Positions 12,675-47,567 of a stretch of 64,000 bases of DNA are shown here, in pieces. Position 1 is the first letter of the stretch, and every line of letters starts with the position of its first letter. Source of the stretch: Rathayibacter caricis DSM 15933 (GTDB taxonomy: Bacteria; Actinomycetota; Actinomycetes; Actinomycetales; Microbacteriaceae). The DNA is taken from the NCBI RefSeq assembly GCF_003044275.1, contig NZ_PZPL01000001.1:3782001-3846000 (forward strand). The letters are read 5' to 3'. The notes under the pieces were generated by a model that saw nothing but the letters and a program-made list of their open reading frames with translations, had not been told where the DNA came from and made no database searches. A program made the translations under genes and the position numbers.

Positions 12675-12787
12675 CGGAGCCACCCTACCGACGGGGCCCG
12701 CGTCGAGACTGGGCAGTCGCTTCAGGATGGGAGGGCGTGCACGAGGTGCGGCCTGCGGAGGAGCGGTACGCGTCCTGTTTAACGGAA

Positions 12788-12882
12788 GAAGACCCCCCGC
12801 GCACCCGCCAGAGCCCGGTTACCCTTGCTGCGTTTCCGCCCTGGGGGAGTTGGCCTGGATGGCGCCACGCGGGGAGCCGGGA
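12788..12882 (-). ncRNA. ffs: Signal recognition particle RNA, small bacterial type
   Basis: On the minus strand the sequence contains CCAGGCCAACTCCCCCAGGG, then the conserved tip GGCGGAAACGCAGCAAGGGT. This is the helix 8 domain that binds Ffh. The ends pair (CUCCCCGCG near 12875 with CGCGGGGGG near 12794). A TAGACT -10 hexamer at 12886-12891 on the same strand sets the 5' end near 12880. About 90 nt is normal for the short SRP RNA. The exact ends are estimates. Confidence 0.85.
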
Positions 12883-12983
12883 GACAGTCTAACCCGATCC
12901 GGCGGGGCTCAGGAGCGCCCGGTGGTCTGCAGGGGGCGCCCGTTCCGTGTAGTGTGCATGAGGTCGCGATCACGGTCGCGCCT

Positions 12984-13068
12984 GGAGGATTCGCCTAGTG
13001 GCCTATGGCGCACGCTTGGAAAGCGTGTTGGGTGAAAGCCCTCGGGGGTTCGAATCCCCCATCCTCCG
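12984..13068 (+). tRNA. tRNA-Ser (anticodon GGA)
   Basis: An 85-nt cloverleaf: acceptor GGAGGAT pairs with ATCCTCC, anticodon stem CACGC/GCGTG with loop TTGGAAA gives anticodon GGA, a long variable arm (TTGGGTGAAAGCCC) typical of class II tRNA, and a T arm GGGGGTTCGAATCCCCC. The discriminator is G and CCA is not encoded. It reads UCC and UCU codons. Confidence 0.95.
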
Positions 13069-13840: not shown

Positions 13841-13862
13841 CGCTAACACGCGGGCGTTAGCG
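13841..13862. promoter_or_regulatory. TetR operator candidate
   Basis: Inverted repeat CGCTAAC ... GTTAGCG with an 8-bp centre, placed 9 bp before the TetR start codon. The form and position are typical of TetR autoregulation. Confidence 0.6.
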
Positions 13863-13939
13863 GCGCCCGCTTCGCCGGCTGGCAAGAGGACGCCCACAGG
13901 GCCGCCTGTCTTCCCGGAAGGCGCCCGCAGGGCCGCCGC

Positions 13940-14119
13940 CGCTGACGGGGTCGGCTGCAAGGCGGAGGAGGGAGCGATACCGGCGGTATCGCGACCGACG
14001 ACAACGCCGCAGACGGCCCCGTCAGCGGCGGCGGGCGGCTGCAAGGCGGAGGAGGGAGCGATACCGGCGATATCGCGACCGACGACAACGCCGCAGACGG
14101 CCCCGTCAGCGGCGGCGGC
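13940..14119 (-). repeat. Structured foldback element, two tandem 84-bp copies
   Basis: Two copies (13952-14035 and 14036-14119) of an 84-bp unit, nearly identical. Read on the minus strand each holds CTGCGGCGTTGTCGTCGG, then an inner hairpin GCGATACC-loop-GGTATCGC, then CCTCCTCCGCCTTGCAG. Outer arms CGCTGACGGGG and CCCCGTCAGCG pair around it. The element starts 8 bp after the DUF853 stop codon, and its outer arm repeats the last bases of that gene (14104-14123 against 14126-14145). A third copy with different stems lies at 45704-45788. The 295-bp gap between DUF853 and tetR is otherwise empty. Confidence 0.75.
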
Positions 14120-14126
14120 GGGCGCG

Positions 14127-16025
14127 TCAGCGGCGGCGGCGGGCGGTGCCGAAGATGCCGCGGACGACTTCGCGGAGCAGGGTCTTGCCCGCCGAGGAGC
14201 CGAGGACCTGCTCGACGACGCCCTTCTCGCGGCGCGGGGTGCTGCTGCGGGTGGTGGGGGCGGTGCGGCGGCGGGTGCGCTCGGCGGCGGCGTCGGCGCG
14301 GCGCTCGGCGGCGGCGCGCTCCTTCTGGAGGCGGACGTCGGCGGCGGCGCGCTCCTTCGCGGCGCGGGCCTGCTCCTTCGCGAGGCGGGCGTCCTCCTCG
14401 GCGCGCTCCTCGGCGACCCGGCGCTCCTCCTCCGCGTCGGCCGCGGCGTCGAGGCGGCGGGTCAGGATCTCGCGGGCGGAGTCGCGGTCGAGCGGCGTGC
14501 CGTAGCGCGCGAGCAGCGGGGACCGCTGCACGCTCGCCTCGCGCTCCGACTCCGGGGTCGGCGACATGGAGCCCTGCGGGGCGCGCAGCCGCGTCCAGGC
14601 GACGGGCGTCGGAGCGCCGCGCTCGTTCATCACCGTCACGATCGCCTCGCCGATCGGCAGGGCCTGGAGGGTCTCGCCGAGGTCGTAGTCCGACTCCGGG
14701 TAGGTCGAGACGGTGGCTCTCAGGGCCTTCGCGTCGTCGGGCGTGTGCGAGCGGAGCTGGTGCTGGATGCGCGAGCCGAGCTGGGCGAGGACGTCGCCCG
14801 GCACGTCCTTGGGCGTCTGGGTGACGAAGACGATGCCGACGCCCTTCGAGCGGATGAGGCGCACGGTCTGGGTGATCGCCGCGAGGAAGTCCTTCGAGGC
14901 GTCGCGGAACAGCAGGTGCGCCTCGTCGAAGAAGAAGACGAGCTTCGGGCGCTCGAGGTCGCCGACCTCGGGGAGGTCGTTGAAGAGGTCGGCGAGCAGC
15001 CACATCAGGAACGTCGAGAAGAGCGCGGGCCGGTCCGCCACTCCGGGCACCTCGAGGAGGCTCACCACGCCGCGGCCGTCGGCGGTGGTGCGGAGGAACT
15101 CGGCGGTGTCGATCTCGGGCTCGCCGAAGAAGACGTCGGCGCCCTGGTCGGCGAAGGCGATGAGTTCGCGGAGGATCACGCCCGCGGTGGCCTTGGACAG
15201 TCCGCCCAGCTCGGCCAGCTCGCCCTTGCCCTCGTCGCCGACGAGGTAGGTGAGGACGGCGCGGAGGTCGGAGAGGTCGACCAGCGGGAGGCCCTCGCCC
15301 TCGGCGTAGTGGAAGACGAGGCCCAGGCTCGACTCCTGGGTCGCGTTCAGACCGAGCACCTTCGAGAGCAGCAGAGGCCCGAAGCCGGTGACGGTCGCGC
15401 GCACCGGGACGCCCGTGCCGATGCCGCCGAGCGCGAAGAACTCGGCGGGTGACGCCTCCGCGTGCCAGTCCTGCCCGATGGTGCGGGTGCGGGCGAGGAG
15501 CTTCTCGTTCCCGGTGCCGGGCGTCGCGAGGCCGGAGAGATCGCCCTTGATGTCGGCGGCGAAGACGGGGACGCCGGCCGCGGAGAGCTGCTCGGCGAGG
15601 ACCTGCAGCGTCTTGGTCTTGCCGGTGCCGGTCGCGCCGACGACGAGGCCGTGGCGGTTGAGCATGCCGAGCGGGAGCCGGACGGGGACCTCGGGGCGGG
15701 CCTCGCCGTTGACGAGGGCGCCGAGCTCGAGGACGGGGCCCGCGAAGGCGTAGCCGGCGCGGACGGCGTCGACGGCGGACTCGGAGAGGGGACCGGCGGG
15801 CACTGGCGCGGGCGCGGCGACCGGATCCTCCTGCGCCGCCTCGACCAGCCGCACGTCGTCGACGACCGCGCTCGCCTCCTCCGGCCCCGACACCGCACCC
15901 AGCGCCGCCGCGGCGGCCTCGGCGCGCTCGAGCGCCCGCGCCGCCTCGGCCTGCAGTGCTCGGGCGGCCTCCAGGGCCGCGCGTGCGTCGTCCCTCGCCG
16001 AGGCGAGCCCGTCGTCGATGCTCAT
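14127..16025 (-). CDS. Helicase HerA-like ATPase, DUF853 family
   Basis: A 632-residue P-loop ATPase. Residues 1-80 are an Ala/Glu-rich, probably coiled-coil start. Walker A is GATGTGKT at 130-137 and the DUF853 core continues with FAADIKGDLSGLA. Walker B reads VFFFDEAHLLF, and a sensor stretch GIVFVTQTPKDVP follows. The C-terminus (about 100 residues) is a highly charged EERRVAEERAEED-type helix ending in RRRR. HerA-like ATPases translocate on DNA, but the DUF853 branch has no settled role. It starts 9 bp after the saccharopine dehydrogenase family gene, so the two are likely cotranscribed. Confidence 0.88.
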   Translation of the reverse strand: MSIDDGLASARDDARAALEAARALQAEAARALERAEAAAAALGAVSGPEEASAVVDDVRLVEAAQEDPVAAPAPVPAGPLSESAVDAVRAGYAFAGPVLELGALVNGEARPEVPVRLPLGMLNRHGLVVGATGTGKTKTLQVLAEQLSAAGVPVFAADIKGDLSGLATPGTGNEKLLARTRTIGQDWHAEASPAEFFALGGIGTGVPVRATVTGFGPLLLSKVLGLNATQESSLGLVFHYAEGEGLPLVDLSDLRAVLTYLVGDEGKGELAELGGLSKATAGVILRELIAFADQGADVFFGEPEIDTAEFLRTTADGRGVVSLLEVPGVADRPALFSTFLMWLLADLFNDLPEVGDLERPKLVFFFDEAHLLFRDASKDFLAAITQTVRLIRSKGVGIVFVTQTPKDVPGDVLAQLGSRIQHQLRSHTPDDAKALRATVSTYPESDYDLGETLQALPIGEAIVTVMNERGAPTPVAWTRLRAPQGSMSPTPESEREASVQRSPLLARYGTPLDRDSAREILTRRLDAAADAEEERRVAEERAEEDARLAKEQARAAKERAAADVRLQKERAAAERRADAAAERTRRRTAPTTRSSTPRREKGVVEQVLGSSAGKTLLREVVRGIFGTARRRR

Positions 16026-44564: not shown

Positions 44565-45695
44565 GTGACCACTATGAAGCGCTCCCTCCTCGCCGGCCTC
44601 GCCGGCGGAGCGATGATCCTCTCCCTCGCAGCCTGCTCCAGCGGCGGCGACTCGGGCAGCGGCGACGGCGGCGGCGAAGGCGGACTGGTCGGCGTCGCGA
44701 TGCCGACGAAGTCCTCCGAGCGCTGGATCGCCGACGGCGACAACGTCAAGTCGCAGCTCGAGGAGGCCGGCTACGAGGTCGACCTGCAGTACGCCGAGGA
44801 CGACATCCCCACCCAGGTCTCGCAGCTCGAGAACATGATCACCAAGGGCGCCAAGGCCCTGATCATCGCCTCGATCGACGGCACCACCCTCACGAGCGTG
44901 CTCGAGGAGGCGGCCGCGAACGACATCCCGGTCATCGCCTACGACCGCCTCATCCGCGACTCGGCCAACGTCGACTACTACGCGACCTTCGACAACTACA
45001 AGGTCGGCGTGCAGCAGGCCACCTCGCTCCTCGCGGGCCTCGGCCTGACCGACCTGACCGGAGCCCCCGCCGCCGACGCGCCGGCCGGCCCGTTCAACAT
45101 CGAGCTGTTCGCCGGAAGCCCCGACGACAACAACGCCACGTTCTTCTTCAACGGCGCGATGGACACCCTCAAGCCCTTCATGGACGACGGAACCCTCGTC
45201 GTCAAGAGCGACGAGACCGAGTTCACCACCGTCGCCACGCTGCGCTGGGACCCCGAGGTCGCCCAGAGCCGCATGGAGGACATCCTGACCAAGTCGTACT
45301 CCGACGGATCCCAGGTCCAGGGCGTCCTCTCGCCCTACGACGGCCTCAGCCGCGGCATCATCTCGGCCCTGACCGACGCCGGCTACACCGTCGGAACCGA
45401 CTTCCCGATCATCACCGGCCAGGACGCCGAGCTCGACTCGGTCAAGGCGATCATCTCCGGTGAGCAGTACGCGACCATCTACAAGGACACCCGCGAGCTC
45501 GCGGCCGAGGCCGTCACCATGGCGCAGGCCGTCCTCGAGGGCACCGAGCCCGAGGTCAACGACACCGAGACCTACGACAACGGCGAGAAGGTCGTCCCGT
45601 CGTACCTCCTCGAGCCCGTCATCGTGACCAAGGACGACATCGAGTCGGTCCTGGTCGACGGCGGCTACTACACCGACGCCGAAATCAACGGTTAA
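44565..45695 (+). CDS. chvE: Multiple monosaccharide ABC transporter substrate-binding protein
   Basis: A 376-residue periplasmic-binding-type lipoprotein of the CUT2 group. A signal with lipobox LAAC (Cys24 from the GTG start) is followed by a flexible Gly/Ser linker and the mature domain ([49 protein letters not shown]). These are features of ChvE/GguB-type binders for xylose, arabinose, galactose or glucose. The GTG at 44565 has GAAGGA 7 bp upstream; the ATG three codons later is less well spaced. It is the first gene of the operon, with a structured 342-bp leader before mmsA. Confidence 0.93.
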
Positions 45696-45703
45696 TCGCG
45701 AAC

Positions 45704-45788
45704 CTCGGTGGGGTGATCTGCGGCGCTGTCGTCGGGCGCGATGGTTCCACCATCGCTTCCTCCTCCGCCTTGCAGCTCACCCCACCGA
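45704..45788 (+). repeat. Structured foldback element, third copy
   Basis: Outer arms CCTCGGTGGGGTGA and TCACCCCACCGAG enclose CTGCGGCGCTGTCGTCGG, an inner hairpin GCGATGGT-TCC-ACCATCGC and CCTCCTCCGCCTTGCAG. The same inner sequence and order occur at 13940-14119 on the other strand, with changed but still pairing stems. It begins 9 bp after the chvE stop, in the sense orientation. Confidence 0.75.
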
Positions 45789-45791
45789 GAA

Positions 45792-45875
45792 CCGCGACCG
45801 CCCTCCAGGAGGAGGAGCTCCGCGACAGCCCTCCCGAGGAGGAGCCGCCGCGGATGCCCTCCTGAGGAGGAGCCG
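45792..45875 (+). repeat. Three tandem 28-bp hairpin repeats
   Basis: Units start at 45792, 45820 and 45848 with consensus CCGCGACRGCCCTCC then NGAGGAGGAGCY. Each holds a short inverted repeat CCTCC...GGAGG. GAGGAGG in each copy is a strong ribosome-site-like sequence without a following start. Confidence 0.7.
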
Positions 45876-45883
45876 TTGCGTCA

Positions 45884-46018
45884 CTCCTCTTAACAAAGAG
45901 GAGCGGAAGCGAGCGAGGCCTCCCCGAGGGGCCGTGACCGGATCGGCGCCCGAGAAGGTGCGGGTCGCGAGTCGGTACTGAACGATCCGAGCCGGGTCCC
46001 CGAGAGGGGGCCCGGCTC
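45884..46018 (+). promoter_or_regulatory. Leader hairpins before mmsA
   Basis: A perfect 8-bp stem CTCCTCTT/AAGAGGAG with an AACA loop (45884-45903). A second stem GAGCCGGG-T-CCCC/GGGG-G-CCCGGCTC (45989-46018) ends 3 bp before the GAAGGAG ribosome site of mmsA. Such hairpins could lower expression of the ATPase and permease relative to the binding protein. Confidence 0.5.
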
Positions 46019-46037
46019 CCTGAAGGAGTGAGGCGTA

Positions 46038-47567
46038 GTGAGCACCAACATTCTCGAGATGCGCGGGATCACCAAGACGTTCCCGGGTGTCAAAGCGCTG
46101 CAGGACGTGACCCTGAACGCCGCGCGCGGCGAGGTGCACGCGATCTGCGGCGAGAACGGCGCCGGCAAGTCGACGCTGATGAAGGTCCTGTCCGGGGTCT
46201 ACCCGCACGGCACCTACGAGGGCGACATCGTCTTCGAGGGCGACGTGATGCAGTTCGGCAGCATCCGCGACTCGGAGGCCAAGGGCATCGTCATCATCCA
46301 CCAGGAGCTGGCCCTCAGCCCCTACCTCTCGATCGCCGAGAACATCTTCCTCGGCAACGAGGTCCGCGGATTCGCGGGGCTGATCGACTGGAACAAGACC
46401 AACCAGGAGGCGGCCGCGCTGCTCGCCCGGGTGGGTCTGAAGGAGAACCCCACGACGAAGATCCAGGAGATCGGAGTCGGCAAGCAGCAGCTCGTCGAGA
46501 TCGCCAAGGCGCTCTCCAAGCGGGTCAAGCTGCTCATCCTCGACGAGCCCACCGCGGCGCTCAACGACGAGGACTCGGACCACCTGCTCGACCTGATCCT
46601 GCACCTCAAGGAGCAGGGCATCACGTCGCTGATCATCAGCCACAAGCTGAACGAGATCAAGAAGATCGCGGACACCGTGACGGTCATCCGCGACGGCAAG
46701 ACGATCGAGACGATCGCTCACGACGACGTGACCGAGGACCGGATCATCAAGGACATGGTCGGCCGCGACCTCGACCACCGCTACCCGGACCACACCCCGC
46801 ACATCGGCGAGGAGATCCTCCGCGTCGTGGACTGGACCGCCCACCACCCGCAGGACCCGACTCGCGTCATGGTCGACAAAGTGAACCTCACGGTGCACCG
46901 CGGCGAGATCGTCGGCATCGCCGGACTCATGGGCGCGGGTCGCACCGAGTTCGCGATGAGCCTCTTCGGCCGCTCTTACGGCAGCCGGATCTCGGGCCAG
47001 GTCTTCAAGGCCGGCAAGGAGATCAAGATGCGCAACGTGTCGGAGGCGATCGCCCACGGGCTCGCCTACGCCACGGAGGACCGCAAGCACTACGGCCTCA
47101 ACCTCATCGACGACATCAAGCGGAACATCTCGCTCGCCTCGCTCGAGAAGGTGTCGAAGGGCGGACTCGTCGACGACAACCGCGAGTTCGAGGTCGCGAA
47201 CGAGTACCGCGGCAGCATGAACATCAAGTCGCCGACCGTGCTCGCCAAGACCGGCAAGCTCTCGGGCGGCAACCAGCAGAAGGTCGTCCTGTCGAAGTGG
47301 ATCTACTCCGACCCCGACGTCCTGATCCTCGACGAGCCCACCCGCGGCATCGACGTGGGAGCGAAGTACGAGATCTACACCATCATCAACAAGCTCGCGG
47401 CGGCGGGTAAGGGGATCATCGTCATCTCCTCCGAGCTCCCCGAGCTGCTCGGCATCTGCGACCGCGTGTACGCGCTGTCGGAGGGCCGGATCACGGGCGA
47501 GCTGCCCATCGCCGAGGCGACCCCCGAGGCGGTCCTCACCCTCATGACCCAGGAGAAGCAACGATGA
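46038..47567 (+). CDS. mmsA: Multiple monosaccharide ABC transporter ATP-binding protein
   Basis: A 509-residue double-ATPase of the CUT2/RbsA type. The first half has Walker [10 protein letters not shown], signature [15 protein letters not shown] and Walker [11 protein letters not shown]. The second has the usual altered Walker [10 protein letters not shown], signature [15 protein letters not shown] and Walker [12 protein letters not shown]. Only the first half is expected to be fully catalytic. The GTG start has GAAGGAG upstream. It is coupled to mmsB by an ATGA overlap. Confidence 0.95.

Follow-up and report, generated by a model that had tools for sequence, protein, structure and literature searches.

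The foldback elements in the window (the whole 64,000-nucleotide stretch of the Rathayibacter caricis DSM 15933 genome that was analysed, positions 3,782,001 to 3,846,000 of contig NZ_PZPL01000001.1) probably belong to a MITE-type superfamily of Actinomycetota, made up of non-autonomous mobile palindromes with a strand-specific folded core; we put the probability of this reading at roughly 0.64. The elements are short, gene-less palindromes whose outer arms are free in sequence yet paired, and whose central hairpin carries on one strand a strongly conserved double tandem-GA internal loop. As in MITEs, the units are short, lack genes, are bounded by TIRs, display a TA duplication (at one clean plasmid locus and one compatible locus) and occur as dispersed copies with empty orthologous sites; an autonomous IS sharing the ends was not found in the genomes searched, and such an IS is often missing for accepted MITEs. 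As a mechanism, we infer that a TA-targeting transposase acting on the ends would have moved the elements in trans, and that the core would form a strand-specific folded module, possibly as single-stranded DNA during replication or transposition or as antisense RNA, bound by a wholly hypothetical protein partner.

Copies in the window

The sequence-only reading described three copies, each with two motifs flanking an inner hairpin in fixed order, and this observation was confirmed. Both motifs were exact in all three copies, the left motif at 13995-14012 (-), 14079-14096 (-) and 45718-45735 (+), and the right motif at 13955-13971 (-), 14039-14055 (-) and 45759-45775 (+). Allowing up to three mismatches, the left motif had six matches and the right motif four, against chance expectations of 1.47 and 0.49. 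The inner stems were as described earlier, with the added detail that the tandem copy at 14039-14096 has the stem GCGATATC/GGTATCGC, which includes one non-Watson-Crick pair. The outer arms do differ between the two loci yet pair. Both loci also start within about 10 nt of a stop codon and run in the same sense as the gene upstream, as had been noted.

Two of the copies form a head-to-tail tandem pair, the structured strand being the plus strand in each. The proximal copy (14019..14116, core 14039-14096, covariance model E 1.9e-15; 3796019-3796116 (+) in genome coordinates) joins the left arm of the next copy directly, and only the distal copy (13935..14033, core 13955-14012, E 1.3e-26) has a complete right arm, with arm pairing spanning about 20 nt; the pair is therefore a plain duplication of arm plus core. 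Upstream lies a HerA-like helicase gene ('DUF853'; 14127..16025, minus strand, Pfam PF05872, E 5.4e-179), whose stop codon is about 10 nt ahead of the first arm. A bacterial small SRP RNA (-) and a tRNA-Ser (+) were located at 12785-13068, about 1 kb from the pair. The third copy (45697..45795, structured strand minus, core 45718-45775, E 8.5e-27) also folds, with outer arms at approximately 45696-45717 and 45776-45797, and follows a chvE-like periplasmic sugar-binding gene (44565..45695, plus strand, Pfam PF13407, E 9.8e-65) that ends in TAA at 45693-45695. Serial short GAGGAGG/CCTCC hairpins were seen 3' of this copy at 45800-45880, their number varying between sister strains. Further downstream, comparison of orthologous intergenic stretches from 15 genomes revealed a GC-rich hairpin (45991..46016, plus strand), similar forms of which occupy the same place in genomes without the element; it has no T-run, and the terminator scan passed over it.

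Distribution

A pattern search identified nine exact-core copies in the window genome, 97 in the 15 Rathayibacter genomes (all 15 positive), and the exact-core form in 16 of 296 genomes sampled across the class. At least 119 stretches with this form were present in a scan of contig records; the 80 titled matches listed were mostly from Streptomyces, with others from Rathayibacter, Gordonia, Nocardioides, Pseudonocardia, Kribbella and further genera, and one from a MAG record labelled Clostridiales (an unconfirmed label, given as in the record). The exact-core pattern had no match in viral contigs, and blastn with the chvE copy had none in phages and matched one plasmid. A Streptomyces copy matched 26 plasmid records, all from Streptomyces.

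The covariance-model search proposed in the sequence-only reading revealed many copies, with 13 hits in the window genome and, at E <= 1e-4, matches in 72 of the 246 class genomes, spread over 23 of 104 genera; at most 16 candidates were scored per genome, so copy numbers saturate. The window genome was the only one of its family or order among the 72 positives, and at least 11 genomes of its family and at least nine of its order, among the genomes listed, had no model match. In a draw from the phylum, 19 of 198 genomes matched, five belonging to the class and 14 labelled as the same phylum; the latter had weaker model scores, a few of them near the limit. Most of the eight out-of-class copies inspected retained GCAAGG and GAGGAGG/CCGACGA-like letters, and loop insertions were present. 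Three of them (L438, L441 and L442) had CTA/TAG palindrome ends when read by eye, and in L443 the outer part of the core was altered on both sides.

Insertion sites and terminal repeats

Streptomyces units measure about 189 bp, have the core at their centre and carry the ends TAGGGCCTCTCGTTTGGATC or variants thereof, whilst other families combine the same core with quite different ends, the unit of family f26 being about 165 bp. Core-less derivatives of 81-83 bp delimited by the TIRs were also identified in Streptomyces. Among 17 stretches from one genome (G123, L364-L383), ten had a changed core (CCGCG replacing CGGCG), one the usual core and six none, four of the 17 being core-less 81-83-bp units. 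Some Streptomyces copies (L022, L050, L107, L375) contained a second short palindrome of the CCCCC...GGGGG type inside an arm or the inner hairpin.

Filled and empty sites could be compared at two loci. At a LysR/racemase locus, the Streptomyces plasmid NZ_CP109206 was filled, with TA on each side of the element (one mutated to CA), whilst NZ_CP107978, NZ_CP108219 and NZ_CP045548 were empty with CTAG, the empty form reading C-TA-G. The second locus (NZ_CP045549 filled, NZ_CP107979 empty) was compatible with TA duplication but less clean, since the base 3' of the right TA differs and the empty record also lacks further downstream sequence. Of 110 copies, 63 had CTAG at a palindrome edge, compared with none of 252 control windows 250 nt away. 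TA was present at both edges in 49 of the 110, at one in 28 and at neither in 33, the last of which may reflect decay or misjudged ends. Ends were readable in these 110 out of a set of 130 copies drawn mostly from outside Rathayibacter; 14 loci were excluded from the set (nine with Rathayibacter titles, L110 and L112 from related genera, and the Rathayibacter-like L145, L147 and L153), which still includes three copies of the window genome (L010, L026, L035). CTAG contains TAG, which would explain why such elements land at stop codons. The earlier suggestion of a mobile palindrome that targets gene ends thus gains support from the TA duplication at CTAG on the plasmid and from the enrichment of CTAG at element edges.

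A preference for CTAG is known for IS630, and duplication of a TA target is a typical sign of double-strand DDE transposition. No candidate autonomous partner emerged from the searches. In seven Streptomyces genomes (one without any match), allowing up to two mismatches, the only TIR pair at IS distance was in G173 and, read by eye, consisted of two complete neighbouring units 1.75 kb apart. No IS-length TIR pair was evident among the matches listed for family f26 in five further genomes, G041 lying outside the listed part. Neither the Y1 transposase (PF01797) nor the DDE_3 transposase (PF13358) was detected in any of the 15 Rathayibacter genomes; the absence of DDE_3 counts against IS630/Tc1-type mobilization in that genus. 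A split autonomous element was also considered and rejected: a search of 273 loci for half-cores without a partner gave 153 matches, and those inspected among the first 60 proved to be chance matches in coding sequence or disrupted tandem copies (e.g. L069, L110, L229).

The TIRs are so divergent between lineages that a single end-recognizing transposase cannot explain all of the elements. The core itself could instead be the mobility signal, recognized by its structure as a REP-like single-stranded element and cut and pasted by a putative enzyme; the arms would then need only to pair, which would leave their sequence free. Retention of the core while TIRs change beyond recognition, the strand-specific fold described below and the failure to find a matching IS all fit this proposal, and an asymmetric single-stranded target would produce the orientation lock seen in Rathayibacter. 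The CGTC-REPs, palindromes without a transposase, offer a precedent in the portions of their description consulted (PMC3733652). However, the TA duplication fits double-strand DDE transposition instead, there are derivatives that lack the core but have intact TIRs, and these may themselves have moved, the core is changed in most of the G123 stretches, and the genus has no Y1 transposase. On balance, we regard a core that directs its own mobility as unlikely.

Fold, covariation and strand preference

The predicted fold comprises about 19 outer pairs, a G.A-type mismatch, four pairs, an AA bulge, four further pairs, two tandem-GA steps and an 8-bp inner hairpin. The sequence-only reading had proposed compensatory change from three copies, which are too few to decide covariation; 56 copies do decide it. 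From 212 distinct copies, 67 remained below 80 % identity and 56 were aligned, the 11 left out having an odd inner length (four) or an interrupted or atypical arm (seven). In this alignment 88 % of cells pair compared with 65 % in shuffles, percentages that the omission of those 11 copies biases upward. Doubly changed cells numbered 500, compared with 191 (sd 11) in shuffles, and the covariation score was 0.588 compared with 0.188; none of 500 shuffles reached either value, and slid controls lay far below the real alignment. The number of pairs with a double change (29 of 38) was a non-discriminating measure, the shuffle mean being 27.5 and 63 of 500 shuffles reaching 29. Compensatory change is thus well founded. 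The invariance of the core columns stems in part from picking copies by an exact core pattern; among copies found by the model the core does vary.

The two strands differ in the kinds of non-Watson-Crick pairs that they form. On the mRNA-sense strand the commonest were A.C, C.A, T.C and C.T, compared with G.U wobbles and G.A pairs on the complementary strand; at arm position 5, for example, the sense strand of 95 Rathayibacter copies had C.A in 53 and G.T in none. Across all helices of the alignment, the structured strand had 220 G.U cells against 35 A.C cells. The wobble bias was 0.164 against 0.027 within a copy's own arms and 0.147 against 0.059 when arms of different copies were combined; being weaker but present in the combined arms, the bias is in part one of base composition. 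Predicted RNA folding energy favoured the complementary strand, which had the lower value in 55 of 56 copies (mean difference -16.3 kcal/mol), compared with 58 of 128 control windows (mean +0.7). Seven of the eight out-of-class copies folded better on the same strand, L439 being the opposite, and four copies examined with shuffle controls had the same preference, three of them also under DNA parameters. In most of those four, the sense strand likewise folded better than its own shuffles. These data speak for a fold formed by the strand opposite the mRNA-sense one, as single-stranded DNA or antisense RNA.

A separate family of antisense RNA genes, protein-binding or catalytic and spread on MITEs, would account for several of these features. 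Tandem G.U and tandem G.A motifs, both typical of RNA helices, occur on that strand, the stems covary, and the GAGGAGG/CCGACGA-like letters persist beyond the class while neighbouring pairs change. Single-stranded DNA, however, also tolerates G.T and G.A pairs, and the proposal is a prediction from sequence rather than from expression. The element had no Rfam match at gathering score, and identity with an Rfam RNA family was rejected on that basis; relaxing the threshold to E 5 brought nine weak matches for the window copies, eight of them to microRNA families. A scan confined to sigma-70-like promoters also returned no match near the window copies. We consider an RNA gene family of this kind improbable.

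Orientation and gene ends in Rathayibacter

Within Rathayibacter, 79 of the 97 copies start 9-45 nt (median 25) 3' of a same-sense stop. For three copies an antisense stop follows no more than 60 nt downstream; two of these also have a same-sense stop, and the third is a second tandem copy. The 17 copies with neither stop are mostly distal tandem copies, and no adjoining stop was found for L229, L263 and the first copy of L232. The 79 gene-end copies comprised 25 sequence clusters, 15 of which hold at least two copies, mostly from different genomes; merged by eye, they represent 21 loci, none abutting only an antisense stop. A less clean tally by gene calls gave 13 of 97 copies with an opposite-strand upstream call, several of which are miscalls. 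Outside the genus, the 93 copies with readable ends among 104 had a same-sense stop only in 22 cases, an antisense stop only in 16, both in five and neither in 50. The fixed sense claimed from the window therefore stands for Rathayibacter, where all 21 stop-abutting loci agree, but does not extend elsewhere.

The stops preceding the element in Rathayibacter were TGA in 23 cases, TAG in 11 and TAA in four (n=38), and those of all called genes nearby were TGA in 289, TAG in 75 and TAA in 18. This dominance of TGA is counter-evidence to the MITE reading, and the TA duplication is unreadable in Rathayibacter copies. Arm pairing takes in the final two stop-codon bases (0.67 and 0.63 of 63 copies) and drops at the first (0.41). 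At DUF853 as many as the last 10 nt of the coding sequence are also paired, 10 nt being reached in two genomes; one other locus has 6 nt, and most of the 63 copies have 0-3 nt. The idea that arms in general are inverted copies of gene ends was rejected, since it fits a few loci only. Replication-fork direction agreed for 29 of 32 placements (G302 8/8, G301 4/4, G303 7/7, G000 8/9, G297 2/4), with positions read by eye, the terminus assumed to lie opposite dnaA and the copies non-independent; genes are themselves biased in replication direction, which confounds this reading. The chvE copy breaks the fork-direction rule and retains the gene sense.

The sequence-only reading offered an RNA-level role in the 3' end of the upstream gene as its other explanation, whether as terminator, stabilizer or protein site. 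The position of the 79 copies past same-sense stops at 21 loci, conservation of the core in several species at one locus and the sense strand's advantage over its own shuffles agree with such a role. The strand bias and folding energy nevertheless favour the other strand and disfavour it, supporting the mobile palindrome: the non-Watson-Crick pairs of the sense strand are mainly A.C and C.U, and orientation is near random outside the genus. No intrinsic terminator (GC hairpin plus T-run) was detected in 13850-14200, and the only one in 45600-46060 was on the minus strand at 45923-45905, outside the element, which itself lacks a T-run. At chvE the element is present in six of 15 genomes and absent from nine, with the separate GC-rich hairpin persisting downstream, and at DUF853 it is present at eight of 11 readable loci and absent from three. 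Three further DUF853 loci gave no motif; one of these genomes, G299, nevertheless has the element on a split contig (L215). We consider an mRNA 3'-end role quite improbable. At the DUF853 locus of other genomes (L306, L308, L309, L313) another palindromic repeat, approximately GCTGATCGAGTAGCCCGC...GCGGGCGTATCGAGATC, was observed, several times over in some intergenic regions.

Comparison of sister strains, whose gene stretch is 99 % identical, placed 11 differences within 52 positions of the core and inner hairpin of the chvE element; the flanks had 1/62 on the left, 5/91 on the right and 11/182 further on, with gaps. This swap of the inner hairpin may be explained most simply by conversion from another copy. 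Another candidate explanation invokes no selection at all, with template-switch correction keeping palindrome arms paired and plain duplication adding copies. The DUF853 arms that copy up to 10 nt of the coding end, the wholesale swap of an inner hairpin and the tandem duplication in the window are what it would produce. Correction should, however, yield perfect palindromes on both strands, and alone it cannot yield a 6:1 excess of G.U over A.C or a fixed non-palindromic core; we judge it highly improbable.

The Rathayibacter copies look old, many being shared between species, and they are fixed in gene end and orientation and subject to hairpin swaps. They are probably no longer jumping, and selection may have retained these immobile copies. 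Insertion at a symmetric CTAG does not account for the orientation lock. A more specific version of the mobile-palindrome reading, which we offer tentatively and with some doubt, is that these class-spanning palindromes would owe their mobility or maintenance to the strand-specific core, with its double tandem-GA loop, acting through a putative protein as single-stranded DNA or antisense RNA, the TIRs being left free, and that they were captured in one orientation at about 21 Rathayibacter gene ends.

Relationship to known repeats

RUP of pneumococcus, Correia elements and IS630-type elements are TA-duplicating bacterial MITEs, short and gene-less with terminal inverted repeats like those described here. 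Our elements differ in keeping the core, and not the terminal repeats, across families and beyond the class, in the strand-specific fold and in that no partner IS was found. GTAG REPs with their RAYT (Y1) transposases have a strand-specific hairpin at gene 3' ends, a likeness to our elements; identity was rejected, as no GTAG tag was seen and Y1 was absent from all 15 genus genomes. Integron attC sites, in the general description of them, have variable stems and conserved features and lie right after a stop codon, as here, whereas the two upstream genes in the window look like ordinary chromosomal genes.

Among the closest published repeats are RUP and BOX, and, in the sections of that report consulted, RUP of pneumococcus is likewise short and gene-less, with TIRs, target duplication, over-representation downstream of genes and a predicted fold (PMC3049150). 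CGTC-tagged REPs also bear a likeness, with CGTC beside the stem on one strand and no dedicated transposase (Di Nocera et al. 2013, PMC3733652). As described in the consulted sections of that paper, they measure 20-40 bp, have an 8-9-bp stem whose first and second pairs are AT, lie mainly 3' of coding regions and were reported in five phyla, Actinomycetota not among them. Our elements differ from that description in their length of 100-190 bp, double tandem-GA loop and frequent CTAG ends; identity was rejected, since the alignment contains CGTC but lacks conserved AT pairs where the stem begins. RepRanger (PMC12306157) has a table with three Actinomycetota species, and a term search of it returned neither Streptomyces, Rathayibacter nor Microbacteri-. 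In the papers searched, the string CTGCAAGGCGGAGGAGG was not found, nor was CGGAGGAGGG together with Streptomyces, and titles and abstract openings, from a search that left subscription literature mostly outside, contained no description of the element.

Significance

MITEs normally retain their ends and lose the middle. In these elements the pattern is reversed: the middle is conserved from Rathayibacter to Streptomyces, and more weakly beyond the class, on one strand, whilst the ends drift, which points to a putative partner that binds it across much of the phylum. The element is a widespread actinobacterial gene-end feature absent from Rfam and can mislead terminator and 3'-UTR annotation. 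It also provides a testable case of strand-specific selection on a palindrome.
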